A stretch of 64,000 bases of DNA. Origin: Tildeniella nuda ZEHNDER 1965/U140 (lineage in GTDB: Bacteria > Cyanobacteriota > Cyanobacteriia > Leptolyngbyales > Leptolyngbyaceae). Within the stretch, counting starts at the first letter, position 1. Every line of letters starts with the position of its first letter. The notes beneath the pieces were generated by a model. The model was not told the DNA's origin. It did no database searches and saw only the letters and a list, made by a program, of their open reading frames with translations. This document shows, piece after piece, positions 1 to 49,127 of this stretch. The stretch is from NCBI GenBank assembly GCA_019358895.1, contig JAHHIG010000003.1, positions 358,804 to 422,803 of the forward strand, read 5' to 3'. The translations under genes were made by a program, and so were the position numbers.

Positions 1-1
1 T

Positions 2-115
2 GCTCAATACGAAAACACACTTGGCTATGCTCTTACCATTAAGCAGATGTTGGAAGCGGCTGGTAGTCAACGGAGCATTTTTGAGGCGGTTCTGGAACAG
101 AGGAAAAAGTTATAA
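2..115 (+). CDS. 3' end of an unrecognised gene (partial)
   Basis: The window opens inside a reading frame that runs from base 2 to a TAA at 113-115. It gives a 37-residue C-terminal tail rich in Glu, Gln and Lys (contains TIKQMLEAAGSQ and ends EQRKKL). The tail looks helical and soluble. No family can be named from this fragment. It lies on the transposon side of the right-end junction at 15828, so it is probably cargo, but that is inference because the left end is not in view. Confidence 0.4.
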   Translation, partial: AQYENTLGYALTIKQMLEAAGSQRSIFEAVLEQRKKL

Positions 116-355
116 ATCTTTACATCAAATTTCTTACTGGAAGTCATACACTCTTTGTCTTGACCTTCAGACGTAGCTTTTCTATTGTGGAAGTTGCTTT
201 GAAAATGCATTGAGTGCCGTCGGTAGAAAACCAATAATCAGCTAAAGCTTCTAGGGGTTAGCTGAAATTTTGCCATGGCACTATGAGAGCGATCAGCGCA
301 TCGCTTGCCATCAAATGAGTCATGTCGATCACTCAACCATGTGTGCTTAGAGCCT

Positions 356-907
356 ATGAACCCGATTATTTACGCTTGTTGCCAGACGGAAGATCGCCTC
401 AAACGTTCTGAAGCACCCTACCGTTTGGAGTGGTCCACTGTCGCTCCTCAGCTAGGCACAGTCATCTCAATGGGAGCTCAAGCGCGTTGGAGTGTTGTAA
501 AAATAACGGTTTATCGCCCCGAGACGGCTCAAACAGTGGCTAGTATCTACTTAGTTTATGTCCATCCAGAAGGGCTTTCCGTTCCACCAGATTCAGAATG
601 GGATAACGACTTCATCATGGACTCAGAGCATGGTCTTTATCTTGAAGTTGTGGCCATCGGCGAAGAAGAATTAGCACTCGGCGCACTTGGAAGTTCGCGT
701 ATACCCAAGGTCGGCGATCAGGTGGAAAGCGATGTTGATCCAATGGACGCAGACATCATTATTTATGATCCACCCAAATTTTGGACTATGCGTCAAGTCG
801 TGTCTTACTCACCAGTGATGGAAATGCGCCTCGTAACCTCAGAGGAAATTAATGCAAGGGCTTTTTTGTGTTGGTGTGAACCTACAGAAGTAACTTCAGC
901 CTCTTAA
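356..907 (+). CDS. Hypothetical protein, 183 aa
   Basis: I do not recognise this protein. The frame is open from 305, but the ATG at 356 is the likely start (MNPIIYACCQTE). The product is acidic and apparently soluble, with no signal peptide or membrane span and no repeats. It contains the stretch DPMDADIIIYDPPKFW and a mixed alpha/beta composition. It stands alone, flanked by intergenic DNA on the left and a decayed transposase on the right, as expected of transposon cargo. A plain hypothetical gene is the safest label. Confidence 0.4.
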   Translation: MNPIIYACCQTEDRLKRSEAPYRLEWSTVAPQLGTVISMGAQARWSVVKITVYRPETAQTVASIYLVYVHPEGLSVPPDSEWDNDFIMDSEHGLYLEVVAIGEEELALGALGSSRIPKVGDQVESDVDPMDADIIIYDPPKFWTMRQVVSYSPVMEMRLVTSEEINARAFLCWCEPTEVTSAS

Positions 908-1065
908 ACCAAGAAGTGGTTAGGCGAAGTTTTGCTCTGCGTGCAAATTTTCATCAACTTCGGGCTCTTGTCCACTTTTAATACTGCTGGTGAAATATTG
1001 CTTAACCTGTGCTGTATTTCCACAACTTCGTGAAAATTTGCAACTTGCCAACGGAGTCACGAGCC

Positions 1066-1750
1066 TTACGTACTGAGAAACCCGAGTCTTTGCTTGTGGA
1101 TTTCAACTAGCCAATTGAAAATCCGCTTCAAGTTGATCGCTGTGGCGGTCATCAAAGGCTGTAGATGGATTTTGGCTAGACCCACATAGCGAGCATGACC
1201 GAGCCCATCAACACAAACCCCTTCCGAGAGGGTGCCTTCGATCCCTGCACAACAGGCATACTCTTTTTTATAGTCAATTATTGTTTCTCGTTGTCGAACG
1301 GTCTGTAATGCTTTGTACTGTTGTTCTAGACGGATAGTGATTGTCCGTCTTTATCGCTTGCTCTGAGTATAGAAGGATAAACTGGGACAAACCGAGCAGT
1401 CAGCACGCAAGAACTCAACTTTGATCACCTCGTTATGTCGACCAGCGATCGCGGGTATCCAAGAGGGGCTGGTCTTTCCTCCAGGGCTGGTCACGACTTG
1501 CTGTTGCCAGTCGACCGTAAAGTCATTGGCTGCAAATCTTTTTGCTTGCTTCGATTGTCACCAATGGTTGAGGCGAGTCGGTCCGAGTAAATCTACTTGA
1601 TAATCGGCTTAAGCGGTGACTAACAACTCAGCGTCGAGACAGCCAGTAAGAAGCGGTATGGTAACGGAACGTAGTCACTTCTTTACGATCTCCTGCACGT
1701 CTCACGGAATGTAAACGCCTGTAGCAACAGCCCCTGACGTATCAGTCATG
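1066..1750 (-). pseudogene. Decayed IS1182-like DDE transposase, C-terminal part
   Basis: Reading the minus strand gives the C-terminal part of an IS1182-family transposase. A cysteine pair (CSVCPS) is followed by QSKR, then an in-frame TAA, then RRTITIRLEQQYKAL, and further on the diagnostic block YACCAGIEGTLSEGV, RYVGLAKIHLQ and TATAINLKRIFNWL, ending at a stop at 1066-1068. The frame is broken upstream and no N-terminal half is recognisable. The element is a dead remnant. It marks the transposon's presumed cargo region as a place where other mobile DNA has landed and decayed. Confidence 0.75.
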
Positions 1751-1782
1751 ACCATATCTTGCCCTTATAAAGAGGTACCCGC

Positions 1783-2289
1783 ATGACAGACCTACAGTTT
1801 GATCTCCTTGGCGCTGACTATCGACGCATCCACCACTTTCTGATCGAGCAGCGCACAGAGGGCAATATCGTCATTATCACGAGCAACATTACCCGTGATG
1901 TCCACGGTAATCCCATTAACACGCCTAATCCACAAGCTGGACAGGACATCTGTCACCACACTAGCGACCTGCTGTTACCCAGTCGAGCCTACTGGTCACC
2001 GCGTCAGTTTAGTGGCTACAACTACCGCCTCAGCTGGCGCAAAAGCCGAGACGATTACGACACACTCAACCCCGAATACGAGCGGCTGAAAGACTTACTG
2101 GCAAGGGACGGTCAGATCCCAGACTACGAATACACGCTCTATCGCACAGACGGTGCCTTGTGTCGCTATCAAACCAGCTATTTCCTGTGTCAGGACTACT
2201 TGGGTGATGCCGTCAGGATTGGTGTCAGTCGTCCGCAAGACTGGCAACTGCTGGAAGCAGCACCCACCGCACCCACACCTGAAGCTTAA
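1783..2289 (+). CDS. Hypothetical protein with possible PAS-like fold, 168 aa
   Basis: The ATG at 1783 has only a weak ribosome-binding site. The product contains EGNIVIITSNITRDVHGNPI near its N-terminus and, towards the C-terminus, YRTDGALCRYQTSYFLCQDY followed by LGDAVRIGVSRP. That second stretch has the alternating pattern of a PAS-type beta-sheet core, and similar sequences occur in cyanobacterial hypothetical proteins. No kinase or output domain is attached. It sits between two dead transposase genes and is probably cargo. The PAS suggestion is tentative; another small ligand-binding fold would fit equally well. Confidence 0.4.
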   Translation: MTDLQFDLLGADYRRIHHFLIEQRTEGNIVIITSNITRDVHGNPINTPNPQAGQDICHHTSDLLLPSRAYWSPRQFSGYNYRLSWRKSRDDYDTLNPEYERLKDLLARDGQIPDYEYTLYRTDGALCRYQTSYFLCQDYLGDAVRIGVSRPQDWQLLEAAPTAPTPEA

Positions 2290-2418
2290 GTCGCACTATC
2301 AGAGGTGTCAGGCGAGCCTTAACAGATGAGCAACGTGGAACCTTAATGCTTCTGAACCAGTGGGGGTGTCACTTTAGCCATAACGGGCTTACTACTCGTG
2401 TGGTCATAGCTATTATCC

Positions 2419-3405
2419 TCATTCACAGCACCTGAACTGTTTGCCGCCAACGAAGCCGTCACGATCTTCCTTGCCAATGTCACTGTCATTTCTGTCAATC
2501 GGTAGCGTCGTCAGCAAGAGCCAGCGAATGGGCTTACCCTCGGTTGGTGGAGTGACTTCTTCGACCAACAGCACATTTAAGGTCACTGGTTGACACTGCT
2601 TGGGCTGTTTGTGATGACGTGGCACTTCAATCGTTACCTGCAGCCCACGCACCGTTAAGGTCGCACTTCGAGCCGGTCGTTCAGGGTTGCGCTCCAGTGT
2701 CAGCGTCTGTTGTCCCAGCACGGGCGCTTGCTCAATCGCTGGGATGAGATAGCCCAACTCGTGCTGGACTTTGCGGTTAGACTCAGCGCGAATGAGCAAG
2801 GCACTGTTGGCACGCCTGGGTTGGACAAAGAGGTCGTAAATGTCGGCTTCGCGGTCCCCTACATGCACTAGGCACACCGTCTCATCAATCCCTTGTTCGG
2901 CGGCTGTTAACGTGTCGAGCCAACGCTGACTCTCCTTCTCACGGGTGGCTTTTTTGCGCCGTTCTCCCCGCTTGCCCGCTCGTGCCGCTCGGGTCCAGGT
3001 GTGCTGCGGCAAGAGTCCCAGCGGTGCGCCACTGCCATTGACGGCAAAGCAACTATGTACTTTAAGCCCTTGCTGCTGGCTCTGGTTGATAAAGCCCAAG
3101 CCGCTGGTCTGCTTCAAACCACTGAAGTCTAAGTCCGTCGTGTCTTGAATCGCCAGCACGACCCCTGCCGCCTTAGCCCGCTCCACTACACTGCCACGAT
3201 GACTCGCCAAAATTTGTTCCGGCTGCACCCGCTCATTCGCCCAAAACCGATCGATACTCTGACTCTCAGCATTGCTCCCACTTGCTTGTGGCACACTCGC
3301 TTCCGGCTGCTCAGCGAACAGGCGCACTGTTTCCCGTAAGCGTTGCCCATGCCGAAAATCACCGAAGGGATGACTTTTGCTTGCTTAGCGTGCCCAATCT
3401 CGCAT
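2419..3405 (-). pseudogene. Truncated IS4-family (Tn5-like) transposase
   Basis: The minus strand encodes an IS4/Tn5-type transposase. The N-terminal block HPFGDFRHGQRLRETVRLF is followed by the first DDE region (AIQDTTDLDFSG) and by VHVGDREADIYDLF, which carries the second catalytic Asp. The natural start appears to be the ATG at 3405 (MRDWAR), but codon 7 is TAA (3385-3387), so only an internal start at 3327 stays open. After LLTTLPIDR near 2490 the family's YxxR-E-YH block (with the catalytic Glu) is replaced by unrelated sequence. With a nonsense codon near the start and a lost C-terminus, the gene cannot be active. Confidence 0.8.
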
Positions 3406-4908
3406 GATGCCCTCTTGCTAGATTATCCAACAACTTCAATTAAAGCTCTCACACCCGATGCTCCTAAGCCATGCCCTGTAATGCTTCTATGCACTTGTGC
3501 TTAATGGATAGCTCTAAGAAGCCCTGTGATCTTTAGTAGAACACTCAGTTCCTTAGATTTCGTCTTTTTCAGCAAGCACTAACGAAACTGGTCAGCCTCC
3601 ACTTGCGATCGCACTCAAGTATCGCAATGTTTGTTCTCATCGACACTGCTCACCACAGGTTTATGTCACTGAATGATCAATTTAACCGTGTTTTCCTCAT
3701 CGCTTAAGTAAAAAATATTGCTCGTCGGCTACATAGAATCAATTTAATTTAATTATTGCGCTAGAAAAACAATTCTTCAAAGCCATAAGGCTTCATAGTT
3801 TAATCCTTTTAAAGCAATTTTTTCTCGTAAATCAAGAGAGGTTCCCTCGTTAGACGAGGAGCATTACCAAAGCATTGCCAAGCACTTATTTGAGGTCTCT
3901 CAACTATAGTCACCTCTTCAGACTCCTACTGGAAGCCAGATACAAGTTTTTGCGAAAACAAAGAAATTTCATTATTTTCTTGACAACTTCTAGAAGAATC
4001 TCTATGTTTATGGAATGATTCAATTAACAAAGCGCGTTTCAGCTATGCATTAATTAAGGCATCTAGAATGAGTTCTACTTACATGTTTGAGTCCTACCGA
4101 CTTGTAAGCAGGCAGTTTACCTCCCAAGACATGGCTCCTTCCTTTGAAGAGAAAGGTTAGAGACTGAACTGAATTGAACTTTATTTATTCATGCCTCTAA
4201 ACTTTCTGAAGAGCTAGTCTTTTCTTTGATAAGAGTTCTCTCTGGCTCATCTTAGAAGCCTGGAATGTTAACCCATCCAAGCAGCTAAATTTGAGGTTTT
4301 TAAGTCTTCTACTGTCCTAAAAACTTATTGAGCTATAGATGATGATTAGTAGTTGATCTAAAGTTTGTCTCTGTTGCTCAGTAGATGCTTTTCTACTAGA
4401 AGAATCGGAGCTTATCAAACTTGCATATGAAGTTTTAGGTTAACTCGTAGAACTTTCTTACGCTTGATCTAAAACTACGCTTGGCTAGCTCTAGCTGAAG
4501 TTTTTAAAGCTGGTTTTTTTCCCTTGACAACGACTTTAGCTAGAAGGAGAGACGAGGGATTGTGAGGCGAAAAGCCTTCTGTAATCACTGTTCTGCTACT
4601 AAAAGCAAACATCCAGTGGCATCAGTCTGGTTCTAGTTTAACTACCTTCCATCGCTACTTGGCAGAAAGGTTTTTAGAAGCTAAACGCTTTTACTATGCA
4701 CAATCAGATCCCTAGAGAGCGGTTATAAAAACGTCAAAAAAATTAGAAATCTAGCTAGTTAAAAAAAGACGCCAGCCTGCATTCCATTTTTGGTTAATTT
4801 AAACCTATTCGCCTAATGTCCTTAAAGTTGCCAGGAGTATTGATAACAGGAAGCCATAAGGGGCAGAGCCTTGTCCAATAAAAATAGCTCTACTAAAGGT
4901 AACTAAGT
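3406..4908. other. 1.5-kb AT-rich intergenic region before cas6
   Basis: No gene, RNA gene or recognisable repeat could be supported here. The stretch is AT-rich with scattered short open frames on both strands, none with a convincing start or composition. A TTGACA-like hexamer near 3980 and another near 4524 could belong to promoters. I looked here for the other transposon end (TGT plus repeats resembling those at 15764-15828) and for the missing 3' part of the ssb-like gene, and found neither. The last few hundred bases must hold the promoter of the cas operon. Confidence 0.4.
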
Positions 4909-5571
4909 ATGACCTCAAGTGTTTGGAAAACGACGTTGTCAAATCATTTGTCTTCCAATAATAAATATCAGCTATTAAATCAAACTTATGCAGATTTGGT
5001 TTTTGAGCTAATAGGACAAGAAATAAGCCGCGACTACGGTTACAAGTTATATGCTGCACTTTCACATTGTAAGCCTTTATTGCATTCCCTTGAGAGCATC
5101 AGTATTCAGCTAATCAACGGTTCCCCTACTCAAAAGTCACGTTTACGAATGCGATTACCTGCTGATCACATTCCGAATTTTTACTCTTTAGCAGGCAAGA
5201 CACTTTCAATCGGCGATCGAAAAATTCGTTTGGGTGTTCCTCAAATCCATCCTCTAGAAGCGGCACAGAATCTTTACTCACCCATTGTGGTAATTAGAGG
5301 TTACCAAGAACCATCATCATTTCTAGAGGCGGCATATCGACAATTTCAAAAACTTGGTATCGAGGCAGAAATGAACCTCCTAGTAAATCGTAATAGTGAA
5401 CCCAGCCGGAGAGTAATGCGAGTCAAGCAGTTCACACTTGTAGGGTTTGGTCTTGAAGTAACTAATCTTTGTGAGCAGGATTCTTTACTTTTACAAGTTC
5501 ATGGCATAGGCGGAAAACAAAAAATGGGCTGTGGTTTCTTCACTCCTCAGCTAAAAATTGGCAATCGCTAA
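4909..5571 (+). CDS. cas6: Cas6 CRISPR RNA endonuclease (Cmx6-like)
   Basis: Cas6 cuts the repeat RNA of the CRISPR transcript to make crRNAs and usually stays on the 3' end of the guide. The 220-residue product opens, after a short N-terminal extension, with LVFELIGQEISRDYGYKLYA, the pattern of the Cmx6 branch. Two ferredoxin-like halves follow, and near the C-terminus is a glycine-rich loop (GIGGKQKMGCGFF) like the G-loop of the family. Several histidines lie in the first third, but the catalytic one cannot be assigned by eye. It is the first gene of the cas operon, with cas8 starting 14 bp downstream. Its substrate would be the array at 8933-9112. Confidence 0.85.
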   Translation: MTSSVWKTTLSNHLSSNNKYQLLNQTYADLVFELIGQEISRDYGYKLYAALSHCKPLLHSLESISIQLINGSPTQKSRLRMRLPADHIPNFYSLAGKTLSIGDRKIRLGVPQIHPLEAAQNLYSPIVVIRGYQEPSSFLEAAYRQFQKLGIEAEMNLLVNRNSEPSRRVMRVKQFTLVGFGLEVTNLCEQDSLLLQVHGIGGKQKMGCGFFTPQLKIGNR

Positions 5572-5585
5572 ACCAGAACAATTCT

Positions 5586-7094
5586 ATGAGTATCAGATTG
5601 AGGATTGACTGCCCTGCAATGACACTTTTACACCTTGCTGGGTTTGTGGGGCTTTGGATGACACTCAGAAAGCTACAAGAAAATTACCCTACGGAAAACT
5701 TAAGGCCAGGTAGGTTAAATTGGTCTCTCGCTCCCAGTGAGATCTGCATCACCTGGAATGGGGAAGACTTTGAAGTTTTAGATTGGTTGCTTAATCGAGC
5801 TTTTCAAGTAGACAATAAAGGGCTCATAGTTTTAACGGGTCTGTACTCAGATCAGATGAGTATTGAAGCCCAATTAGCACGCCATCAATGTCTAACGAGA
5901 ACCTTCTTGCAGCACAATAAGTCTATAAGTTCAGACGGACAGGGAAGTGAGTTTATTCGATTAAGTGGTCGCGATGTTGAAGTTAAATATAAAAAAGTGA
6001 AAAGGTATGGACATCAGGACTTTGCAAAGAAGCTTTGTGATGAGAAAGGAATGCTGAGAACGGAACCAATAGGCATTGTGAGTTGGCTATATCCAGGATT
6101 AACAGTACGTCATTATGCCTTTAAAGAGCATACTAAATTTGAAGAGCCTGTGGAATTGATTTTTGTTTTACTCTTTGCTATTGTTGCTTGCAAGTATTTC
6201 ATACTTCTAAATAGCGCCGAAGGAAGCAAGAGGCAATACGCTTTAGTCATTCCTGAATTTACTGATTTGGAAGGCTACCTTGGAAATCAAAAACAAGCTG
6301 AAAAACTTAGTTATGGAGACTTTTTTGCTTTTGGTTTAGGTGATGCTGGATTGAAATCTATTACTTGTCAGCCCGGAAAAGAGTTTTCGGAAGAACTTCA
6401 ACCTTATCGAGGTCAAGTTATCTTATTTAATCAAGCTCCTTGGTCACTGCAGCAGAATACTCGCAGCATTATTTTACATTTATGTATCAGAGAAGAGACT
6501 TTAAGCCCTTACAGCGTTTTTCGCGAGTTTGATTTGCAAACAATGGTCTGGAACTGCACTAGCCAAAGAAGCAAATTGGCTTATAGTTTTGCTGGCAAAA
6601 TAATTACAGAAAATTTAGCAAATAATCAGCCTTGGTGGTCTAGTTTCTCTGAATATTCTCAGAATGAAGAATTTTTCCAGCTTATTTTAGATGCAAGGAA
6701 AGTGTTGCTCTATATGTTGAGAAAGACAAAGCATGATAGTAGAGCAGAAGAATTATTTATCCAGGCTTGCCATGAAACGTTTAGAAGAATCTACGCCAAA
6801 ATTTACGATCGCACTCAAGACGGAGAGTTTGCTCAGATTGAACGGAAAAATCAGCAACTTCGCTATCGACTAAGGCTTTGTAAAAATGAAGATGCTTTTC
6901 GAGGGTTTCTCACGGGCTTTCTTGCCGAAGCCGTTCCGAACTCAGTTGTTGTAAATAATCAGACTGAATTGATGCCAATTCTTACAGGTCAAATTGATTG
7001 GAAGCTCACAAGAGATCTCTTTCTACTTTCAATGGTTAGCTACAAAAAGGTTGGAAATTTAGCAGAAGAAAGCGTATCTCAGAAAGGTGAGTAG
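5586..7094 (+). CDS. cas8: Cas8 large subunit of type I-B Cascade (Cmx8-like)
   Basis: The 502-residue protein sits between cas6 and cas7, where the large subunit belongs. Cas8 recognises the PAM and starts R-loop formation. The sequence resembles the Cmx8 branch: it opens MSIRLRIDCPAMTLLHLAGF and includes the motif HQCLTRTFLQHNK near residue 100. Assignment rests mostly on position and size. An internal ATG at 6714 (residue 377), with AAGGAAAG upstream, would release a helical C-terminal piece of 126 residues, the size expected of the small subunit Cas11 that type I-B systems make from inside cas8. No nuclease or helicase domain is present and no cas3 lies nearby, as expected for an element that uses Cascade only for targeting. 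Confidence 0.8.
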   Translation: MSIRLRIDCPAMTLLHLAGFVGLWMTLRKLQENYPTENLRPGRLNWSLAPSEICITWNGEDFEVLDWLLNRAFQVDNKGLIVLTGLYSDQMSIEAQLARHQCLTRTFLQHNKSISSDGQGSEFIRLSGRDVEVKYKKVKRYGHQDFAKKLCDEKGMLRTEPIGIVSWLYPGLTVRHYAFKEHTKFEEPVELIFVLLFAIVACKYFILLNSAEGSKRQYALVIPEFTDLEGYLGNQKQAEKLSYGDFFAFGLGDAGLKSITCQPGKEFSEELQPYRGQVILFNQAPWSLQQNTRSIILHLCIREETLSPYSVFREFDLQTMVWNCTSQRSKLAYSFAGKIITENLANNQPWWSSFSEYSQNEEFFQLILDARKVLLYMLRKTKHDSRAEELFIQACHETFRRIYAKIYDRTQDGEFAQIERKNQQLRYRLRLCKNEDAFRGFLTGFLAEAVPNSVVVNNQTELMPILTGQIDWKLTRDLFLLSMVSYKKVGNLAEESVSQKGE

Positions 7095-7137
7095 ATGTTT
7101 GAAATTTCAAAAGTGGTTAAATATTTTGGAGACAAAG

Positions 7138-8049
7138 ATGAGACATCTGTTTGGAAACTTTTTAACTCATTATGGGATTGCCGCTAATAATCGTGGAGAG
7201 AACGAAGGTAATCTAGCTACCCTGCAGAAGATTTTATGGAAGGGTGAAGTCCATTCGACAGTCTCAGGGGAATCAACTCGATGGTCACTTAGGTACAGTT
7301 TGCAAAAAAGAGGCTATGACGTCAACCGTGAGTGGAATGATGACACTTGCAGCTTTACTCTAAAAAACCCTGATTATGATAGTGAAGCTTATGCAGATGA
7401 TGACATTTTCGGCTTCCTGCGCTTAGAGGCAGCAAAGGTTGATGGCTCTGATCAAATTCAGCAGGAATCAAAGTCCAAAGCTAGTAAATCAAAGCTCACT
7501 CAAGAGCCCAAAGGCACAAATATTTCTAGAAGAGGTGCATTAGAAGTAGCTCGCGCCGTTTCCATAAATTCTTTTATGGGAGATACCATTTTCAACGCTA
7601 AGTCTGGCGAGAAGGGGCGGAATTCTCTTTACAGCACTGAGGTTCACGCGACCAAGTACCAATATGGTTTCGCCTTAACTCCTGATCATCTAAAGGACAA
7701 ATCTCGTGCCTTTGCCGTACTTGACTGTCTCATCTCACTCAGCCAGGTTGGGGGAAATCACGCTCGGTTTCTCTATGATTTCTCTCCTAGTAGCCTGGTT
7801 TTGCGCTGGACACATGATTTTGCACCTCGTCTTTTGTATTGCTTTGAAGAGGATGAGGATGGGAATATTTCTTCTCAGAACTTAATTCGACAAATCTCCT
7901 CTGGAGATATAGATCCAGAGGAGTTATGGGTCGGTGGGCTTTGCTCTGAGGCTTTAGCTGAATGTGGCGCTCACGTTTTCCCAGGTGTAAAGGCTGCTGT
8001 CGAAGCAATTAAAAACGTCATCGCCAGAGATTTACAGGTATCACTATGA
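7138..8049 (+). CDS. cas7: Cas7 backbone subunit (DevR/Cst2-like)
   Basis: Cas7 polymerises along the guide and forms the backbone of Cascade, flipping out every sixth base of the guide. The frame is open from a GTG at 7087, but the ATG at 7138 fits the family start: MRHLFGNFLTHYGIAANNRG, then EGNLATLQKILWKGEVHS. GGAG at 7128 gives a ribosome-binding site. Later motifs include RRGALEVARAVSINSFMGD and STEVHATKYQYGFAL, typical of the DevR/Cst2 form. A Lys- and Ser-rich insertion lies near residues 105-130. The length of 303 residues is normal. Its stop overlaps the cas5 start by ATGA, so the two are translationally coupled. Confidence 0.9.
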   Translation: MRHLFGNFLTHYGIAANNRGENEGNLATLQKILWKGEVHSTVSGESTRWSLRYSLQKRGYDVNREWNDDTCSFTLKNPDYDSEAYADDDIFGFLRLEAAKVDGSDQIQQESKSKASKSKLTQEPKGTNISRRGALEVARAVSINSFMGDTIFNAKSGEKGRNSLYSTEVHATKYQYGFALTPDHLKDKSRAFAVLDCLISLSQVGGNHARFLYDFSPSSLVLRWTHDFAPRLLYCFEEDEDGNISSQNLIRQISSGDIDPEELWVGGLCSEALAECGAHVFPGVKAAVEAIKNVIARDLQVSL

Positions 8050-8684
8050 TTGCACTCAGAGTCGAAGTACCGATCGCTTGCTTCCGTCAATCACGCGCTA
8101 GGGAATATATTGAAACTTATCTTGTACCACCGCCTGCTACAGTCTACGGGATGCTGCTTTCGATAACCGGGGAAACCAACCGTTATTTGCACTGCGGTAC
8201 TCAATTAGCGATCGCTCTTACTAAAGAACTAGAAAAATCTACTGTGGTTCGGACAGTGCATCGCTTTAAGACAAGAGATGTTGCTGATTCCAGTAATATT
8301 CGGCTGGACTATCAGGAGTTAGTCACTGGTGTTGAGTTAATTGTTTGGGTTGCGGCTGGTTCTGACAAATCTCGCCCGACTCTACCAGAACGCATACAAG
8401 AAGCCTTTGCTAATCCCGCTTTAATCACTCGGTTTGGTGGCTTATGCTTGGGTGAAAGCCATGACTTAGTAAATGCTATCAATATTGTAGGAGAAGAACA
8501 GCAAGAGGCATTATATTGGCTGGTTCAAAGTAAAACTGGCTATCTAACCTTACCGTATTGGGTCAACCATCTTGGCTTGAAGGGCACATACTGGAAGCGT
8601 TATGAGTTGCAGAAGCTTATGCAGCCATATCCTTCAGCTAACGCTTGGACAGAGATTCAGTCCTATCAATATGACAGCTCGTAA
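8046..8684 (+). CDS. cas5: Cas5 subunit of type I-B Cascade (DevS/Cmx5-like)
   Basis: Cas5 holds the 5' handle of the crRNA and sits next to Cas8. The 212-residue product begins IALRVEVPIACFRQSRAREY and continues ETYLVPPPATVYGMLLSITG; the PPPAT-YGML block is the conserved Cas5 N-terminal motif. A second conserved stretch is RFGGLCLGESHDLVNAI, with the glycine-rich turn seen in Cas5 proteins. The start overlaps the cas7 stop. It is the last cas gene; the CRISPR leader and array follow after about 250 bp. Confidence 0.9.
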   Translation: MIALRVEVPIACFRQSRAREYIETYLVPPPATVYGMLLSITGETNRYLHCGTQLAIALTKELEKSTVVRTVHRFKTRDVADSSNIRLDYQELVTGVELIVWVAAGSDKSRPTLPERIQEAFANPALITRFGGLCLGESHDLVNAINIVGEEQQEALYWLVQSKTGYLTLPYWVNHLGLKGTYWKRYELQKLMQPYPSANAWTEIQSYQYDSS

Positions 8685-8932
8685 ATTTTTGCAAGCACCT
8701 TCGGCAGTTGACATTCCTGAGTAGCTTTGAGATTAGAAAGGTTCTCTGACAAAGCTTTACAGCTTTTGATCCATTTCAGATGCTTGCAAAGTATCAAAAG
8801 CTTCTACAGTACGGACTGCACAAGAAAATGACTCCTAGGAAACCTGAAACATCGAATACTTTTATCTTCTTCTAGCAGGTGCTTGCAAATCAGAGTCAGA
8901 ACTCAGTAGCGGTAGGAGTTTCAATCACTGCT
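8685..8932 (+). promoter_or_regulatory. Putative CRISPR leader
   Basis: This AT-rich stretch between cas5 and the first repeat has no open frame of note and is placed where a leader with a promoter would be if the array is read on the plus strand. The word GCTTGCAAA, or its complement, recurs at about 8689, 8784 and 8881, which may be a regulatory motif. No promoter hexamers stand out. The call rests on position and array polarity. Confidence 0.4.
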
Positions 8933-9112
8933 GCGCAATGAGCTGAGATGTCGTAAGGCGTTAAGAACAGCCAGCTAGCGCTGAACGACTTTTTCGTCGG
9001 CACGCGCAATGAGCTGAGATGTCGTAAGGCGTTAAGAACGCGAGTGTTGGCTTGAATAAATGGATTGTGAGTGGCAACTTGATGAACTGAGATGTCGTTA
9101 GGCGTTGAGAAA
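8933..9112 (+). CRISPR. Short CRISPR array: two exact 36-nt repeats plus a degenerate third
   Basis: Two identical 36-nt repeats (8933-8968 and 9004-9039) begin GCGCAATGAGCTGAG and end GTAAGGCGTTAAGAAC. A third copy (9077-9112, clearly conserved only from 9082) is diverged and ends GGCGTTGAGAAA. Spacer 1 is 35 nt (8969-9003). Spacer 2 is 37 nt (9040-9076), with target homology continuing to 9081. The degenerate repeat lies at the downstream end and the 3' ends (TTAAGAAC, TTGAGAAA) resemble type I-B 5' handles, so transcription on the plus strand is most likely. The match between spacer 2 and the host ssb-like gene fixes the same polarity. The array lies between cas5 and tnsA and has no adaptation genes. 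Confidence 0.9.
9040..9081 (+). other. Homing spacer matching the host ssb-like gene
   Basis: In frame, this spacer encodes A-SVGLNKWIVSG, and the next six bases add N-L. The minus strand at 15915-15874 encodes S-SVGLNKWIVSGNL directly after the ssb ATG. Over the first 37 bases there are 8 differences (spacer positions 1, 9, 12, 15, 18, 21, 30, 33), all but the first at third codon positions. The bases 5' of the protospacer are ATG. The guide was therefore taken from, or selected to match, an orthologous ssb gene. It is the leader-distal spacer next to the degenerate repeat, the position of homing guides in other CAST types. Confidence 0.9.
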
Positions 9113-9254
9113 TGGAAGGTTGTAGTGGGAGCATCCCAATTTTGTAAAAACATCCTTGTCTAATGGCGAAATAATTATGCTGCCGTTAGACAAAAAGGCA
9201 TATTGGCAAAAGTGAGATGATCCCGATTGTAGTTAATCTGACTCCAACAGATTT

Positions 9255-9282
9255 ACGCCTTATTGATAATATCGTAAGGCGT
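9255..9282. promoter_or_regulatory. Inverted repeat upstream of tnsA sharing a core with the CRISPR repeat
   Basis: ACGCCTTA (9255-9262) and TAAGGCGT (9275-9282) form an 8-bp inverted repeat about 60 bp before the tnsA ATG. The right arm lies in TCGTAAGGCGTT, identical to 12 consecutive bases near the 3' end of the array repeat. It may be an operator for the tns operon, a hairpin in its leader, or a remnant of a further repeat. No regulator gene is visible in the window. Confidence 0.4.
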
Positions 9283-9340
9283 TTATTCCTTTCAAGTCCT
9301 CATAGCAGACCTTCTTTAGCCTTTAACATGGTGAAATACA

Positions 9341-10195
9341 ATGAGACCCGATCGTGATTGGAGTGAGAAAAAATACGAGAAATACCTTAAGGAAGGACGA
9401 GGGGATGGTTGTGGTAAACAATATATACCTTGGATACAGGTGTATAAGTTCCATCCTAAAACTGGAAGGACGCGGATACCTGGTTGGACAACAGGTAGAG
9501 AACATCACTTGCTATCATTCCTAGAGCAGAAATTTTTCTTGCTATTGGATTGGTCGGATATTGTTTTTGATATTCAGGAACAGTTTCCCATGCTCGATTA
9601 TGAGCTAGCCCAGAAGATTGCGAAGGAGTTGAATTGGAAATACCCTATCAATTCTAGAAGTAACTTCCCCTATATCCTTACGACTGATTTCCTAGTTAGT
9701 TATAAGGAAAACGGGAGGGAGAAAAAGATTGCTATAGCTATCAAGCCTTCATCCGCCCTTAAGAAATGGGATAAATCCTGCCAACCTGATGAGAAAAATG
9801 TTCTTTCAAGACTTGAACTTGAATATCGTTACTGGGAGCTAAAGAAGATTGAATGGAAACTCGTCACTGAAAGACAACTGCCAGAAGTTTTGACATACAA
9901 CCTTAACTTTATACATGGTGACCTTCATTTAGAAGCGACCACTCAAAATAGTATTGAAGAATTGCAGATTGCTGTCCCGACAGTTAAAGAACATTTTGCT
10001 AAATTTCAAGGTTGTGAAAAGTCTATTTATTCTATTACAGATTATTTAGATAGAACCCTCAAATTACAGGAAGGCACGGCTTTTCGTATCTTCAAGCACT
10101 TGATTGCCTGCAAGAAAATTATAGTTAATCTGGAGACATTTCAACTTGATGAGAATCCTTCAATGACTTTAGTTAAACAAGTGGTTTTTAGTTAA
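9341..10195 (+). CDS. tnsA: TnsA endonuclease of Tn7-like transposon
   Basis: TnsA cuts the 5' strands at the transposon ends and works with TnsB to give cut-and-paste movement. The 284-residue protein has the restriction-endonuclease-like core: GREHHLLSFLE (candidate Glu54), DIQEQFPM, then TTDFLVSY (Asp116) and KKIAIAIKP (Lys135), spaced like the E-D-K triad of Tn7 TnsA. A winged-helix-like C-terminal part follows. Unlike some type I-B CASTs, it is not fused to TnsB; tnsB follows at once. All catalytic residues appear intact, so the element may still be mobile. Confidence 0.9.
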   Translation: MRPDRDWSEKKYEKYLKEGRGDGCGKQYIPWIQVYKFHPKTGRTRIPGWTTGREHHLLSFLEQKFFLLLDWSDIVFDIQEQFPMLDYELAQKIAKELNWKYPINSRSNFPYILTTDFLVSYKENGREKKIAIAIKPSSALKKWDKSCQPDEKNVLSRLELEYRYWELKKIEWKLVTERQLPEVLTYNLNFIHGDLHLEATTQNSIEELQIAVPTVKEHFAKFQGCEKSIYSITDYLDRTLKLQEGTAFRIFKHLIACKKIIVNLETFQLDENPSMTLVKQVVFS

Positions 10196-10210
10196 TTGCC
10201 AACATACGAA

Positions 10211-12562
10211 ATGAGCATCTACTTGACAGTCAACCGACTAATTGAATGGAATAATGAAGCTGGGGAACCAATCATAGAAAGAATTTTGTGGGTTGCGCCA
10301 GATTACACAATACTCTTTGCTATTGAAATTTTTGGTACATCGGCTCTTCCAACGAAGCGGCGAACTTATGATGTTGAAGCGGCTCTATCTGAAGGACATG
10401 CTCAGCTTCTAGATGATGATCCGTTTGCAAAGTATATTTCTGAGGAGAGCTTAGCTACTCAACAGAAGAAAGGAAAGAAGAAGGGAACGGAAGAATTAAG
10501 TCGTGATAAAGCTATTCGTGACAAGAACTTTGAATTAATCTCCTCTCTTGTCGGCTCTGAAATGGAGCCCGATATTTTTCTTGCTGATAAACGAGGACCT
10601 CTAATTGAAGCGATCGTTGAGATGCATAATGCTGGTAAAGAGAAGGGCACGAGGAGGAGCAAGAACAAAAGCAGAGTAAGTGCAAAAACTATTTATGTAA
10701 ATCTTAAAAAGTACTGGCAAAGAGGTAAGAATAAGAATGCTCTTCTACCTGATTATCCTAATTCTGGAGGCTTTGGTGTTCCAAAAGCAGCAGGTGAAAA
10801 AAAGAGAGGACGTCCTAGAAATCCTGAATTAGTTAGTAAGTTTGGAGAAGGGATCAACGTTTGTGAATCTATTAGAAAGATTATCAGAGTTGGTTTTGAG
10901 GAATTTTTCAATAGCACGCGTAAGAATCCACTAAGAACGGCGTTTAAGCTGACCAAAAGAAAATATTTCATTGGAAGAGAAATACTTGATGAAAAAGGTA
11001 AAAAAAGGAAAGAAGAAATCCCACCCAGTGAGCGGATAACATTTGAGCAGTTTGAGTATTGGTCCCAGAAGGATATTGATATTGAGAAGACTGAAAAATC
11101 CCGAAGAGGTTCGATTGCCTATGCTCGCGATGTCGCTCCACATTTAGGGTCAGTTAAGGCACCTGGTCCAGGCTACCAGTATCTCATTGATGCTGTCATT
11201 CTTGATGTCTACGTAATCTCACAATTTAATTCAAACTGGATTGTGGGAAGACCTGTTGCTTATATTGTCATGGACGTTTACAGCCGACTAATTGTTGGCA
11301 TTTATGTTGGCTTAGAGGGTCCATCATGGATGGGTGCAATGATGGCATTAGCTAACGTGGCAGAAGATAAAGTTTCATTCTGTAAAAAATATGGCTTCTC
11401 CATTACTGAGGAGGAGTGGCCATGTAGAGAAATGCCGTACGAAATTCTTGCCGACAATGGTGAGATGGCAGGCAAAAAGCCAGACACTTTAATCAATAAT
11501 CTCGACATTAGAGTTGTCAATGCTCCACCTTATCGTCCTGACTGGAAAGGGGTTTTAGAGCGTTATTTCAGAACGATACAGAAGTATGTAGAGCCTTTCT
11601 TGCCAGGTTATGTAGTACCCCGTAGAGAGGGTCCGGACTATCGTTTAGATGCAAAGCTAACGCTTAAAAGTGTTACAAAGATAATGCTTAAAATCATTGT
11701 CTGGCATAACAACTTCCACCGAATAAAAAGCTATTCTCGAACTGAGGAGATGATCGCAAATGATGTACCCCCAGTTCCAATTAAATTATGGAATTTTGGA
11801 CGTAGATATACCGGAAACCCTAGATATTTCCCTGAGGATATAGTCAAGCTAAATCTTTTGCCAACCGCTCAAGCAAGGGTTACACCTAGAGGCATCGTAT
11901 TCAAGGGTAGGAGGTATTATTCTGAAAGCCCTCAAATCAAAAAGCTGATCCAACTAGCCAATGTAGGTTACCTGACAGAAGGGGAGAAGAATTTAGACAT
12001 CTCATTTGATCTAAGGAGACCTGACGTTATCTATGTTAGGGAAGAGCGGGGAAGAACGTATGAGAAATTGTTTCTCCATCCATCTGAGAAGAAATACTTT
12101 GGAAAATCTATCGAGGAAATCGAGTATTTGATCAAACGAGAAAACCTTGATCACAAATTGGGCGAAGAAGATGAGTTTCAAGGTGAAGCTCAATTAATGG
12201 ATCAGATTGAGGCAGAAGTTGCCGAGACAAAATCTGAGGCAAAAGCTCAATATGATCCAAGTTTAAGTAAGACAAAGAAGCTCTCTGGTATAAGCAACAA
12301 CCGAGGGCGCGACAAAGATGCTAATCGAGCCGTTGAAGGTGAGGAATATGAGTTTGGTGATCCAGAGCCTTTAGGCTTGCTTGAAGTTGAACAATCACTA
12401 GAATCTTTAGGTGCAGTTGGATCTGAGCAAGAAACTAAAATTGGTCATTCAGATTCTACCGAAGCTCTTGATGAATCAAAAGTTCAGCCCGAACCTTTAT
12501 CAGCTCGTGCAAGGCGTAGGAATTCCATCAAACAGGCTAAGGAGAAAGCAAATGGATCCTGA
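10211..12562 (+). CDS. tnsB: TnsB DDE transposase
   Basis: TnsB binds the end repeats and joins 3' ends to the target. The ATG at 10211 is taken as start (783 aa); a TTG at 10196, directly after the tnsA stop, is the alternative. The rve core is complete: Asp327 in YQYLIDAVILDVY, Asp415 in YEILADNGEM, and Glu450 in WKGVLERYFRTIQ, together with IVMDVYSRLIVGIYVGLEGPS, a TnsB signature. The N-terminal third carries helix-turn-helix-like DNA-binding segments and the AT-hook-like KKRGRPRNP near residue 200. The acidic, low-complexity tail after about residue 650 fits a TnsC-contacting region. Its last 11 bp overlap tnsC. Confidence 0.95.
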   Translation: MSIYLTVNRLIEWNNEAGEPIIERILWVAPDYTILFAIEIFGTSALPTKRRTYDVEAALSEGHAQLLDDDPFAKYISEESLATQQKKGKKKGTEELSRDKAIRDKNFELISSLVGSEMEPDIFLADKRGPLIEAIVEMHNAGKEKGTRRSKNKSRVSAKTIYVNLKKYWQRGKNKNALLPDYPNSGGFGVPKAAGEKKRGRPRNPELVSKFGEGINVCESIRKIIRVGFEEFFNSTRKNPLRTAFKLTKRKYFIGREILDEKGKKRKEEIPPSERITFEQFEYWSQKDIDIEKTEKSRRGSIAYARDVAPHLGSVKAPGPGYQYLIDAVILDVYVISQFNSNWIVGRPVAYIVMDVYSRLIVGIYVGLEGPSWMGAMMALANVAEDKVSFCKKYGFSITEEEWPCREMPYEILADNGEMAGKKPDTLINNLDIRVVNAPPYRPDWKGVLERYFRTIQKYVEPFLPGYVVPRREGPDYRLDAKLTLKSVTKIMLKIIVWHNNFHRIKSYSRTEEMIANDVPPVPIKLWNFGRRYTGNPRYFPEDIVKLNLLPTAQARVTPRGIVFKGRRYYSESPQIKKLIQLANVGYLTEGEKNLDISFDLRRPDVIYVREERGRTYEKLFLHPSEKKYFGKSIEEIEYLIKRENLDHKLGEEDEFQGEAQLMDQIEAEVAETKSEAKAQYDPSLSKTKKLSGISNNRGRDKDANRAVEGEEYEFGDPEPLGLLEVEQSLESLGAVGSEQETKIGHSDSTEALDESKVQPEPLSARARRRNSIKQAKEKANGS

Positions 12563-14300
12563 AAATCAATGGATTTTACTTCCTAGTGGAATTTATGCTC
12601 ATGTAGCAGACTATAAATTGCATGGGGTACCAGAGTACGATTGCAATCCCTTGCTCCAAGCACTTCCTGCAGTTCTAGAGGAGCATGAGTTTTTTGAGAG
12701 GGTACAAAGCTATCCCAGTTCTACTAGCGAGGAACGGAATCAATCACCTAGGACAAGGCACCAATTTGTGCATCGATTGACTGGACCCATACCAAACCTT
12801 CACTTCTACCATCTCACTCCAAATCTTAAGCCTGTAGTGAATGGATATTTCCATCCACTTCCTGAGCACATTGGCATATATGATGCCATCAATGGAGCTA
12901 TTATGCAGGGCTATATAGCGAGAGGGATTTACTCTCCTAAGGATGCAGAGCGTGCACAACAGATTCATGGAGCAGCTGTCCAGAAAGCTGGGCATAATCT
13001 CGCTCAATTTATTTCAGCTTCTTCTTCTGCACATGGAAATATTTTGATTGGGCTCTCCGGATGCGGTAAAACAACGGCTGTTCTCCGCGCTCTTAGTGTT
13101 TATCCTCAGGTTATCTATCATCCTGAATATGATTTTTTGCAGCTTGTCTACCTCGTAGTTAACTGTCCCCATGCAGGCTCTATTAAAGAATTGTGTCTGT
13201 TTGTTTTTCGGGAAGTTGATAGAACATTTGGATTAGCTGGCAAGAAAAGTTACGCCAATAAATATAGTATAAGCACTACTTCTGAAGGAACTCTCCTTGC
13301 TGAAGTTGCAGCCATTGCAGACAAGTATCGGTTAGGTCTTTTGTTTATCGATGAATTGCAAAACCTTACTGCCGCTAAGAAAGAACTCCCAGAACGAATG
13401 CTGAATTATTTCGTTAATCTTGTAAATATCGGCATTCCAGTCTTTCAAGCTGGTACTAGAAGAGCTGCGAAACTGCTTCGAGGAAGCCTTAGCAAGGCGC
13501 GGCGAGCAGGAGGAGTTCAGTGGGGACGAATTTTAGATAAGGAGGATTGGTCTAATTTTATTCAGAGTCTATTTGAATCACAATGGACAAGAACACCAAC
13601 GCCTTATACAGCAGAAATAGGTGAGGCTTTCGTTAAAGAATGTAAATTTATTCCTGACCTTGCTATTAAACTGCATAAGGCATGTCAATGGAGAGCAATT
13701 GCTGATGGAGGAGATGAAATTATTACTGCAAAGTTGCTCGGTGAAGTTGCACAAGAAATCTTTATTAACCTTCGACCCTTACTTGATTCCATTCAAGATA
13801 ATAATTCAGAGAATATAGATTTGTACGAGGATTTATTAGATAACTTCGACATTGAAGAATTTCGAGAAACTTGCTCACAGAAGACTAAGAAGAGGGAAAG
13901 CGATGAGCTTCATAGGAGATCAAAGGAGCGGCGAAAAAAAGAGGAAGAGATTGTTCTCAAACAGCAATTCCTCACTAAAGCCCTCTACGAACTTGATGAA
14001 ACTCTCGATTCCTTCTTAGTCAAAGCTTGTGTGGAAAAGGCATTAGAGTCGAATCCTAAGGAAGAGGACTTACAGTCTCTTATTACAGCAGCTCATAAAC
14101 TAGCGCTAGATAGTTTGGTCTCAAAATTCAGCAATGTGGCGAACAAGAAGCAGAGTAAAGCAGTCTTAGAATATCGGGAGAATGACCTTAGATTAATTAC
14201 TAAGAAAGCCCAGGAAAGCAATATATCTGAGTTTGAAGTTTTGCAATCTTATGGAATTTTTATGGATCCTGTAGAGAAATTTCTTGTTCAAAATGGTTGA
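12552..14300 (+). CDS. tnsC: TnsC AAA+ ATPase target regulator
   Basis: TnsC links the target-finding complex (TniQ-Cascade) to TnsA/TnsB and is an ATP-dependent oligomer on DNA. The start at 12552 follows AAGGAG and overlaps tnsB by 11 bp; upstream codons in this frame lie within tnsB. Walker A is GLSGCGKTT (residues 167-175) and Walker B is LLFIDE (Asp267, Glu268). The 582-residue protein has a long charged C-terminal region after about residue 430 (KKRESDELHRRSKERRKKE), probably coiled coil. This is longer than the compact TnsC of type V-K and in the range of Tn7-type TnsC. Confidence 0.95.
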   Translation: MDPENQWILLPSGIYAHVADYKLHGVPEYDCNPLLQALPAVLEEHEFFERVQSYPSSTSEERNQSPRTRHQFVHRLTGPIPNLHFYHLTPNLKPVVNGYFHPLPEHIGIYDAINGAIMQGYIARGIYSPKDAERAQQIHGAAVQKAGHNLAQFISASSSAHGNILIGLSGCGKTTAVLRALSVYPQVIYHPEYDFLQLVYLVVNCPHAGSIKELCLFVFREVDRTFGLAGKKSYANKYSISTTSEGTLLAEVAAIADKYRLGLLFIDELQNLTAAKKELPERMLNYFVNLVNIGIPVFQAGTRRAAKLLRGSLSKARRAGGVQWGRILDKEDWSNFIQSLFESQWTRTPTPYTAEIGEAFVKECKFIPDLAIKLHKACQWRAIADGGDEIITAKLLGEVAQEIFINLRPLLDSIQDNNSENIDLYEDLLDNFDIEEFRETCSQKTKKRESDELHRRSKERRKKEEEIVLKQQFLTKALYELDETLDSFLVKACVEKALESNPKEEDLQSLITAAHKLALDSLVSKFSNVANKKQSKAVLEYRENDLRLITKKAQESNISEFEVLQSYGIFMDPVEKFLVQNG

Positions 14301-14377
14301 AATTCGACTATACTTTGTCTTTTTTCATAAGTGCCCTTCTCAAGATATGTTCTGTTTTAGTGGACAACCTATTTTCA

Positions 14378-15334
14378 ATGGGATACCTTATTCTCAATAT
14401 TAAGCCTTATCCAGACGAACTGCTGTGTAGCATCATTGCCCGCTATCATATAAGAACTGGAAACGAAAGCTTTTCACGAACTCATAAAGAGTTCTTTGGG
14501 AAATCATCTCAACAAACAAGAGACTTTTTTTTACCTTGTGACATAGGTGATTTCGTCTCAAACTTGTACTTAAAAAAATATACTGTAGACGGAATTATCC
14601 AAAATCATACTTTGTACCCCTTCTACAAAGCGTTTTTGACAGATGCAGAGGCTTGGCAAGTTAGACGATCAATGGGTGGAGTGCAAAATCGCTCTATCTC
14701 GGAACTAGCACGAATTTCTCTCATCGAAGAAGCATATTTTCGAAAATTCTTGCGATTCTGTCCAAATTGTCTACAAAATCACTTAGAGCAATATGGCGAG
14801 TCCTATTGGAATAGACTTCACAACATTCCTGGGATTTCTGTCTGTCTAGTTCATGGCTCCCATTTGCTAGATAGCAAAATTAAAATTCAAACACAGAAAA
14901 TAGAGTATCAAGCAGCAAGCTTAGAAAACTGTGTTTTTAGCGATCGAGTAAGCAGCTATAGAGAAGAAACTTTGCAGGCTTTGTTGAGCTTTGCAAAGGA
15001 TACTCAATTCATCATGAACCAAAGTTTTGTCTTTAAGGGCTTTTCGTGGCTTCGTAAAAAGTACAAAGCGTATTTGGTTGAGAAAGGTTATTTGAGGTTC
15101 TCCAGAATGGGAGAGGCTAATTTTGATGCCCAGAAGTTTGCGGAGGATTTTACAAGCTATTACGGGCATGATTTCTTAGAAAGCACTCATCTTAGTTTGA
15201 GCAACAAACCGGAGGTGTACCTTAGTCTTTGCTTGCTTGCTTGCGATATACAACCAGCAATTGATCGCATTGCTCATATCTTACTAATAAAGTTCCTTGT
15301 TCCTTCCATCACAGATTTTATATCTGATGCTTAG
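14378..15334 (+). CDS. tniQ: TniQ, Cascade-associated target selector
   Basis: TniQ bridges Cascade to TnsC. The ATG at 14378 gives MGYLILNIKPYPDELLCSII, the normal TniQ opening; a longer frame from TTG 14297 would add 27 hydrophobic residues that the family lacks. The zinc-binding region is clear: FCPNC (Cys128, Cys131), then His148, then CLVHG (Cys156, His159). At 318 residues it is the short RNA-guided form rather than a TnsD, which is usually much longer with a DNA-binding C-terminal half. It is the only TniQ-family gene in the window, so no protein-guided homing factor is seen here. Confidence 0.92.
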   Translation: MGYLILNIKPYPDELLCSIIARYHIRTGNESFSRTHKEFFGKSSQQTRDFFLPCDIGDFVSNLYLKKYTVDGIIQNHTLYPFYKAFLTDAEAWQVRRSMGGVQNRSISELARISLIEEAYFRKFLRFCPNCLQNHLEQYGESYWNRLHNIPGISVCLVHGSHLLDSKIKIQTQKIEYQAASLENCVFSDRVSSYREETLQALLSFAKDTQFIMNQSFVFKGFSWLRKKYKAYLVEKGYLRFSRMGEANFDAQKFAEDFTSYYGHDFLESTHLSLSNKPEVYLSLCLLACDIQPAIDRIAHILLIKFLVPSITDFISDA

Positions 15335-15763
15335 AGTTAATGGTTGGTTTAGTCTTAAAAGGTATGGATAGAATCGACACTAACCTTCTCAATTGCCTCT
15401 GGAAAGAGAGAGCTAGAACTTCAGACGCTTTATACTCTGAGTTGTATTTTTGAGCTGCAAATAGGATAGGTGTTACCTTCTACAGAGAAAAAAAAGAAAA
15501 GCCCTGACGTTCTGCCCTAAAAACAGAGCTTGACAGGTATGTATGACTTTTTTTCCAATAGGGTGATGATGATATAGCAGTTCTCTGTCAAATGAGATAC
15601 AGGTGAGACGATACAGGGCAAGGGTTTGAGCCCCTAGCTTGTACCTTACGGGAGCTGGAAATGCCATGCATACCCTTGCGAACATTTATATGCAAAGGAA
15701 TATGTGTATTTCATCACTAAAAGTCAATCCACTTATTGTAGCATCTTTGTCAAGACTCCAAAT
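15335..15763. other. Non-coding inner part of the transposon right end
   Basis: About 430 bp between tniQ and the terminal repeats hold no gene I can support; the short frames on both strands have no recognisable family or good start. A stretch near 15617-15635 (AGGGTTTGAGCCCCT) looks like a lone tRNA T-arm but no other tRNA part is present. Further, weaker TnsB sites could lie here but are not evident by eye. Confidence 0.4.
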
Positions 15764-15828
15764 TGTTTTACTTTTTTATCCTATGTTTTACTTTTTTATC
15801 CTGTGTTTTACTTTTTTATTGGTTAACA
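15764..15828 (-). repeat. Transposon right end with three putative TnsB-binding repeats
   Basis: Read inward on the minus strand, the end is TGTTAACCA followed by three copies of ATAAAAAAGTAAAACA at 15804-15819, 15784-15799 and 15764-15779, spaced exactly 20 bp. Tn7-like ends begin 5'-TGT and carry several TnsB sites, so ACA at 15826-15828 is taken as the terminus. The next bases outward (CTCGC, 15829-15833) would be one copy of a 5-bp target duplication; the other copy lies with the unseen left end. Confidence 0.85.
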
Positions 15829-15918
15829 CTCGCCACTGCGGAGATCAACAGTCTTGATTTCTGCATCGGCTGCCAGATTGCCGCTGACAATCCACTTGTT
15901 TAAACCCACACTCGACAT
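15823..15918 (-). pseudogene. ssb: 5' fragment of a host ssb-like gene cut by the transposon
   Basis: A strong ribosome-binding site (CCAGGAGG, minus strand) precedes ATG at 15918-15916. The frame reads MSSVGLNKWIVSGNLAADAE, then IKTVDLRSGE, after which the transposon end supplies TGT TAA. The pattern NKWIVSGNL-AD-E----SGE is the first strand of the single-stranded-DNA-binding OB fold (compare N-x-hydrophobic-G-N-L-x-x-D-P-E). Only about 30 of an expected 100 or more residues remain, and the rest is not in the window. It is divergent from crtO. Which ssb-like paralogue this is cannot be told from so short a piece. Confidence 0.8.
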
Positions 15919-48253: not shown

Positions 48254-48353
48254 TGAGTGAGTCATTGGCAATGAGCGTTCAGCATTCAGCGTTCAGCTAC
48301 TCTATCAGTTGTTAGTCATTACAAATACAGCGCTGAGTCAGTATTCTTGCCTT

Positions 48354-48384
<31 letters not shown>

Positions 48385-48427
48385 CCTTCTGTCTTCTGCC
48401 TCCTGCCTTCTATCTTCTGCCTGCCCA

Positions 48428-49012: not shown

Positions 49013-49127
49013 CCCCTCTATTTAACCAAGCAAGCGCCAGAATTTTAGCTTTTAGACGAAGAGATCAGAATCCAGAAGGCAGAACCAACTTCCCACTCCC
49101 CACTCCCCACTCCCTACTCCCCACTCC

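Follow-up and report, generated by a model that had tools for sequence, protein, structure and literature searches.

An ssb-like gene of Tildeniella nuda is interrupted by a 94-kb type I-B1-like CAST and is matched by the second spacer of that element's own CRISPR array, and we consider it highly probable that the element homed to this gene by means of a guide RNA rather than TnsD. The right-hand part of the element lies in the 64,000-nt stretch of DNA analyzed here (the window). RNA-guided homing to ssb, already proposed in a first-pass annotation of the same DNA, is supported because the guide, the ATG codon next to its target, the spacing between the protospacer and the transposon end, the 5-bp target-site duplication, the conservation of the target as a one-piece gene and the lack of any TnsD found in the 94 kb all fit this interpretation. 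The features on which the argument rests are collected in Table 1.

Table 1. Features of the CAST, its CRISPR array and its insertion site (window coordinates)
Feature	Position	Strand	Remarks
Right-hand 15.8 kb of transposon	1-15828	+	
cas6	4909-5571	+	PF09559; TIGR02807
cas8	5586-7094	+	TIGR03485/TIGR03486
cas7	7087-8049	+	TIGR02585; 60-61% identity to Cas7 of three I-B1 CAST loci
cas5	8046-8684	+	TIGR02586
CRISPR repeat R1	8933-8968	+	36 nt
Spacer 1	8969-9003	+	35 nt
CRISPR repeat R2	9004-9039	+	36 nt, identical to R1
Spacer 2	9040-9076	+	37 nt, guide matching the ssb-like gene, starts at the end of R2
Repeat R3	9077-9112	+	degenerate, 28/36 to R1; precedes the apparently split comM guide
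5' piece of putative comM guide	9113-9126	+	11/14 to own comM at protospacer start
MITE-like insert	9127-9224	+	98 bp, 18-bp inverted ends (15/18), flanking 9-mers GGTTGTAGT / GATTGTAGT
3' piece of putative comM guide	9225-9256	+	includes the duplicated 9-mer
Possible terminal repeat R4	9254-9289	+	exact 12-nt core TCGTAAGGCGTT in common with R1
tnsA	9341-10195	+	ORF separate from tnsB
tnsB	10196-12562	+	ORF separate from tnsA
tnsC	12411-14300	+	conserved from about 12564
tniQ	14378-15334	+	318 aa, TniQ plus part of a TnsD domain
PAM-proximal transposon end	15764-15828	-	three tight 20-bp TnsB-site-like repeats, terminus TGTTAACC
Target-site duplication CTCGC	15829-15833	.	second copy C24:280658-280662, exact 5 bp
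5' 90 nt of interrupted ssb-like gene	15829-15918	-	
Protospacer in ssb-like gene	15879-15915	-	
ATG start codon of ssb-like gene, in PAM position	15916-15918	-	

The whole transposon occupies C24:280663-374631 (93,969 bp), and its left end falls in L187, beyond the window; a search for this end inside the window with CTCGCTGTTAA gave no match above chance. The size of the element and the 5-bp duplication follow from its two junctions, both of which read out beside CTCGC: on the left this 5-mer is followed by TGTTAACCAGTAAAAAAGTAAAAC, and on the right, at window position 15828, it is preceded by GGTTAACA. The two transposon ends have 24 of their 25 terminal bases in common as an inverted repeat, and the TnsB-like sites are tightly packed at the right end (10, 30, 50) and spaced at the left end (10, 75, 141). 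The distance from the ATG of the ssb-like gene to the transposon end is 87 nt, which places this end approximately 50 bp past the protospacer.

With respect to its class, the element is, judging from its genes, a type I-B1-like CAST with one TniQ. The cascade genes cas6-8-7-5 are of the I-B/DevR kind and have no cas3, cas1 or cas2 among their neighbors, no further ORF of at least 80 aa was found on the plus strand between cas6 and the array, and the names of the matching Cas profiles vary (I-MYXAN, I-B). TnsA and TnsB are separate proteins, in contrast to the fused TnsA and TnsB of I-B2 and I-D. A tblastn search over the 93,969 bp for a second TniQ or TnsD detected only the 318-aa TniQ, which matches I-B1 TniQ at 41-44% and TnsD at 31-35% and falls outside the TnsD clade of the TniQ tree; two rows of that tree, L082 and L078, fall beside the TnsD protein and probably represent TnsD. 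The nearest TniQ detected for the element is P0002 (53%). The trees place the element as a long, deep branch among I-B1 elements, which, with no non-CAST outgroup included, is a weak test. In the TnsC and Cas8 trees it joins the TnsD-bearing L079 at a point where long branches meet, and it is not grouped with the comM elements in the TnsC, TniQ or Cas8 trees. The gene order in the window is cas6-8-7-5, array, tnsABC and tniQ, reading towards the PAM-proximal end (4909-15334); L076, L083, L092 and L093 have tnsA on the side of glmS or comM, with the cas genes behind tniQ. The blocks have been reordered.

Spacer 2 matches the ssb-like gene of its own genome at 29 of 37 positions, ungapped and starting from the first base after the ATG. 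The mismatches are at positions 1, 9, 12, 15, 18, 21, 30 and 33; seven of the eight fall on codon position 3, and those at 12, 18 and 30 are on every-sixth positions. Since the match runs in codon frame after the ATG, variation would fall mostly on third-codon bases, and half of these bases are every-sixth ones, which type I Cascades are not known to read. Five of the eight mismatches lie at positions that would be read, one of these being position 1, with both the every-sixth rule and the PAM applied to this element from other systems. At any one place, a match of at least 29/37 has a chance probability of 1.5e-11 (uniform bases), and the ssb-like protospacer is the top ungapped match of spacer 2 in the window, the spacer itself excepted, with a runner-up of 23/37. 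A target for spacer 1 was also sought, and no convincing one was found.

Both the match to the ssb-like N-terminus with its third-codon pattern of mismatches and the claim that it exceeds chance, as made in the first-pass annotation, were reproduced on recomputation. The spacer had been drawn there as 9040-9081; its start holds, but the repeats bound it at 9040-9076, and the terminal residues read as 'N-L' run into R3. The apparently split comM guide at 9113-9256 had been overlooked there, and the far transposon end was out of view. It had moreover been taken for the leader-distal guide beside a degenerate repeat, a feature considered to mark homing guides. The degenerate repeat is indeed present, but spacer 2 is followed by the split comM-matching guide and is not the last one, and because the TnsD-bearing L076, L092 and L094 also have a degenerate terminal repeat, such a repeat is no sign of homing by itself and was dropped as a mark. 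The last spacers before the degenerate repeat in L092 (12247-12287) and L094 (12240-12280), both in TnsD-bearing elements, are alike at 37 of 41 positions.

Residues 26-151 of the ssb-like gene are encoded on the same contig at C24:280295-280672, and joining the flanks of the transposon yields a single 151-aa frame that is identical to the gene of G001 at 137 of 151 residues. The gene is present in 30 of the 42 genomes of the order and is split in the host only: 29 of the 41 other genomes show a match from residue 1 in one piece (one of them with a stop inside the match and one with an additional 36-residue fragment elsewhere), and the remaining 12 give no match. Against PF00436 (cut-off 26), the G001 protein scores 23.1 bits and that of L032 27.2 bits; with TIGR00621 the scores are below the cut-off. 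The insertion looks recent, because the 5' stub shows a single difference from the G001 gene over its first 37 bases and the 3' part contains no stop. The target therefore probably looked as it does now when the element arrived, and the eight mismatches to spacer 2 were probably tolerated at insertion.

Aligning spacer 2 with the ssb-like genes of related cyanobacteria, as the first-pass annotation had suggested, revealed matches to 24 homologues (26-33/37; the best in G010, at 33/37, and the intact gene of G001 at 30/37), but no identical source. Since ssb genes are frequent on plasmids and phages, and spacer 2 resides in an ordinary array rather than in a delocalized unit, this spacer could conceivably be an ordinary one against the ssb gene of a mobile element that cross-matches the chromosomal gene and is not a homing guide. 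We regard this possibility as quite improbable. The ssb-like family has no match among 72,556 plasmid records and, in 50,697 phage records, matches only one phage, entered there in duplicate, at 31%; no viral-contig relative was detected; a search with a 27-nt segment of spacer 2 gave no exact match; and in the relatives G010, G019, G027 and G030 the gene is located on contigs of 5-7 Mb.

Relatives of the element provide controls for the proposed homing of the window element by spacer 2. An alignment search with Cas7 yielded 110 relatives, of which 80 were kept; a Cas8 query against the genome contigs found no relative. The motif scan covered 87 sequences, namely the window, six whole-genome loci and all 80 Cas7 loci, with three loci present twice. 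Besides the window, L084 and L093 carry a ComM-like guide (three of the 87 sequences); the ssb-like guide was detected in no sequence but that of the window. This single instance, with no other element carrying an ssb guide among the sequences scanned, counts against the proposal, as do the eight mismatches of spacer 2 to its present target, the lack of an identical homologue and the position of the element beside L079 in the TnsC and Cas8 trees. The scan included 34 Cas7 loci, nearly all of them non-cyanobacterial or short, and these contain neither a ComM-like nor an ssb-like guide; among them, L122 (Xenococcaceae MO_188.B29) is a cyanobacterial Cas7 locus with matches to TniQ and TnsD.

Four I-B1 elements (L076, L083, L092 and L088) adjoin glmS, with GlmS confirmed by profile for L083, L076 and L088 and recognized by eye for L092, and TnsD was found in the first three. 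The fourth, from Nostoc carneum NIES-2107, has a one-spacer array, and a TnsD was not found in its fetched 21 kb. In L084 (Nostoc sp. WHI) and L093 (Nostoc linckia FACHB-104), no TnsD was found in the fetched DNA, the spacer at the end of the array reads as ComM, and the 5' portion of comM, reaching to the transposon end, is included in the locus. The genome of L084 contains comM residues 1-90 and 85-499 apart from each other, with the 5-mer TTTGG at both junctions (by eye); from that of L093, only residues 1-89 and 453-499 were recovered. In the other six genomes searched, the host included, comM is full-length. Furthermore, the protospacers of L084 and L093 start directly after an ATG codon, the distance from this codon to the transposon end (taken as TGT) is 86 nt in L093 and 85 nt in L084, and the tight TnsB-like repeats are at the ATG-facing end in both, as in the window element (3/3).

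Across these elements the selector agrees with the home: four loci are at glmS, three of them with TnsD, two with a comM guide are in comM, and one with an ssb guide is in ssb. The comparison of homes and guides among related CASTs that the first-pass annotation had recommended thus bears out the correspondence for the two comM elements, without adding a second ssb-guide element. Two other genomes of the order, G432 and G005, encode Cas8 matches of at least 35%; both have TnsD beside I-B1-like cas genes and an ssb-like gene in one piece, and the fetched 20 kb of G005 revealed no TnsA, TnsB or TnsC.

The part of the array that follows R3 looks like a second guide, directed at comM and split by a MITE-like insert, because two comM-matching pieces flank 98 bp with inverted ends and a duplication. 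The 9-mers beside the insert constitute a 9-bp duplication with one mismatch, and its inverted ends were equalled by none of 20,000 shuffles, the insert edges having been picked after inspection. A start one base off 9127 was rejected, as it leaves no inverted ends (7/18, with 1,625 of 10,000 shuffles as good). For the 5' piece, runner-up places in comM reach 10/14, hardly worse than the protospacer itself; the stretch 9225-9257 matches the host comM at 27/33, its best place being five bases in, with 17/33 for the next best. The overall similarity of R4 to R1 (18/36) is not significant (358 of 2,000 shuffles). The insert is single-copy in its own genome, and the 42 genomes contain one other copy, in G001 (71% over 97 of 101 query bases). 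This scarcity, the poor discrimination of the 5' piece and the low similarity of R4 count against the split-guide reading. A reading of 9220-9256 as a delocalized comM guide was also discarded, its seed being unmatched and the preceding piece pointing to the insert. The guides at L084:10094, L093:12068 and window 9113-9256 all aim at the same comM stretch, yet the three elements are ungrouped in the TnsC and TniQ trees; the common target may reflect shared descent of the guides, their exchange or convergence.

New spacers are usually added at the leader end of an array. The comM guide would therefore be the oldest of the array and spacer 2 the next, an order from which we infer the sequence of events. 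On this basis, the comM guide would be the older one, no longer working, and the element has probably changed homes from comM to ssb by changing guides. We give about even chances to the full scenario, in which a small mobile insert destroyed the comM guide that the element had inherited and a guide from the host ssb-like gene took over homing, the 94-kb element now being located there. Alternatively, the comM guide might still work, in which case the element would have two homes and no switch would have occurred. Its 5' piece directly follows R3 and its 3' piece still matches comM at 27/33, but only 14 nt of comM-matching sequence, with three mismatches, precede the foreign sequence, and the host comM is intact (C9:189898-191391); a working comM guide thus appears to be an unlikely state of affairs.

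Returning to the homing of the element by spacer 2, we propose that Cas6 would cut the array transcript and that Cascade (Cas5-6-7-8) carrying the spacer-2 crRNA would bind the start of the ssb-like gene, with the ATG read as the PAM. The single short TniQ, which resembles a truncated TnsD, would link Cascade to TnsC, and TnsA together with TnsB would insert the element at the observed distance past the protospacer, with the right end towards the PAM. The spacer-2 guide would thereby have driven the insertion, having become the homing guide once the old comM guide broke. An improbable alternative is that the element reached ssb by another route, be it TniQ alone, a trans-acting TnsD or chance, and only afterwards captured spacer 2 from the host gene. 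Such an origin of the spacer within the host is imaginable, as I-B CASTs are thought to acquire spacers in trans (PMC11406308, available text). Later capture nevertheless fits poorly because spacer 2 is no copy of its own gene, being slightly closer to that of G001, yet fits the ATG position, the spacing (87 nt versus 86 and 85 nt) and the end structure. No TnsD was found in the element, and the genome yields one TniQ-like match at E <= 1e-20.

According to the available text of PMC11406308, a subgroup of I-B1 CASTs gained an att-site spacer, which likely caused the loss of TnsD, and comM is named as a home. These TnsD-less comM-guide elements share with the window element separate TnsA and TnsB, a single TniQ of the truncated-TnsD type, a Cascade without adaptation genes, crRNA homing and insertion within the coding region of a conserved gene; L084 and L093 fit this group, with the ATG position and spacing as in the window. 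The window element differs in its ssb-like home, its apparently split comM guide, the reordering of its cas and tns blocks relative to the ends and its size of 94 kb. Because RNA-guided homing of a TnsD-less I-B1 CAST is already in print for comM, only the ssb-like home is new in the homing idea of the first-pass annotation. AvCAST (I-B1), which homes to glmS by TnsD, has the same kinds of cas and tns genes and a similar spacing and polarity, a review giving 5'-AT as its PAM, 43-49 bp as its spacing and an orientation with the right end facing the PAM (PMC12719977, available text); in contrast to AvCAST and its TnsD-for-glmS arrangement, the window element has no detected TnsD and is not at glmS.

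More distant parallels are found in type I-F3 att-guide CASTs (guaC, yciA, ffs, rsmJ), which likewise combine one TniQ with a guide against a conserved gene but belong to another Cascade and Tn7 branch and are independent, and in type V-K CASTs with homing crRNAs, which also home by RNA without TnsD (PMC11406308, section 7) but use the single effector Cas12k and mostly tRNA gene homes, whereas the ssb guide of the window element is an ordinary array spacer. The available part of PMC11656645 still states that I-B homing uses no guide RNA. The term 'ssb' is absent from the text of PMC11406308, and the available part of PMC10293859 mentions no ssb home. Thus, the ssb-like home and the split second guide appear new in the literature searched; absence from print is not claimed, the key primary paper being outside this coverage.

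The cargo to the left of the window (G000:C24) encodes DISARM-like DrmB, DrmA, DrmMI and DrmD (L188:3711-14657 and L189:1042-10502; PADLOC profiles), together with a PtuA-like ATPase and UvrD-like and restriction-like helicases, and an IetS-like protein (L188:16791-19277). Beside the left end, genes for a PEP mutase, half of a transketolase, an asparagine synthase and an aminotransferase (L187:5921-17550) form what looks like a phosphonate-type biosynthetic cluster. Two reading frames of 402 aa (element positions 48035-49243 and 75243-76451) have identical first 50 residues and are perhaps two insertion-sequence copies. A natural cargo of 94 kb would be large, provided that the element is mobile in its intact form.

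Through the present analysis, an ssb-like gene joins the list of probable RNA-guided CAST homes. Two adjacent guides, one split and the other matching the site that the element occupies, may provide a view of a natural change of home, and suggest that an ordinary array spacer is able to become a homing guide. The case also bears on the tolerance of I-B1 CASTs for wobble mismatches in coding targets, a property discussed for the att guides of I-F3 (PMC11406308, section 22). Furthermore, it bears on whether homes are chosen because loss of the gene helps the element: comM and the ssb-like gene are both DNA-processing genes, and insertion into either may therefore weaken natural transformation and shield the element from being recombined out.
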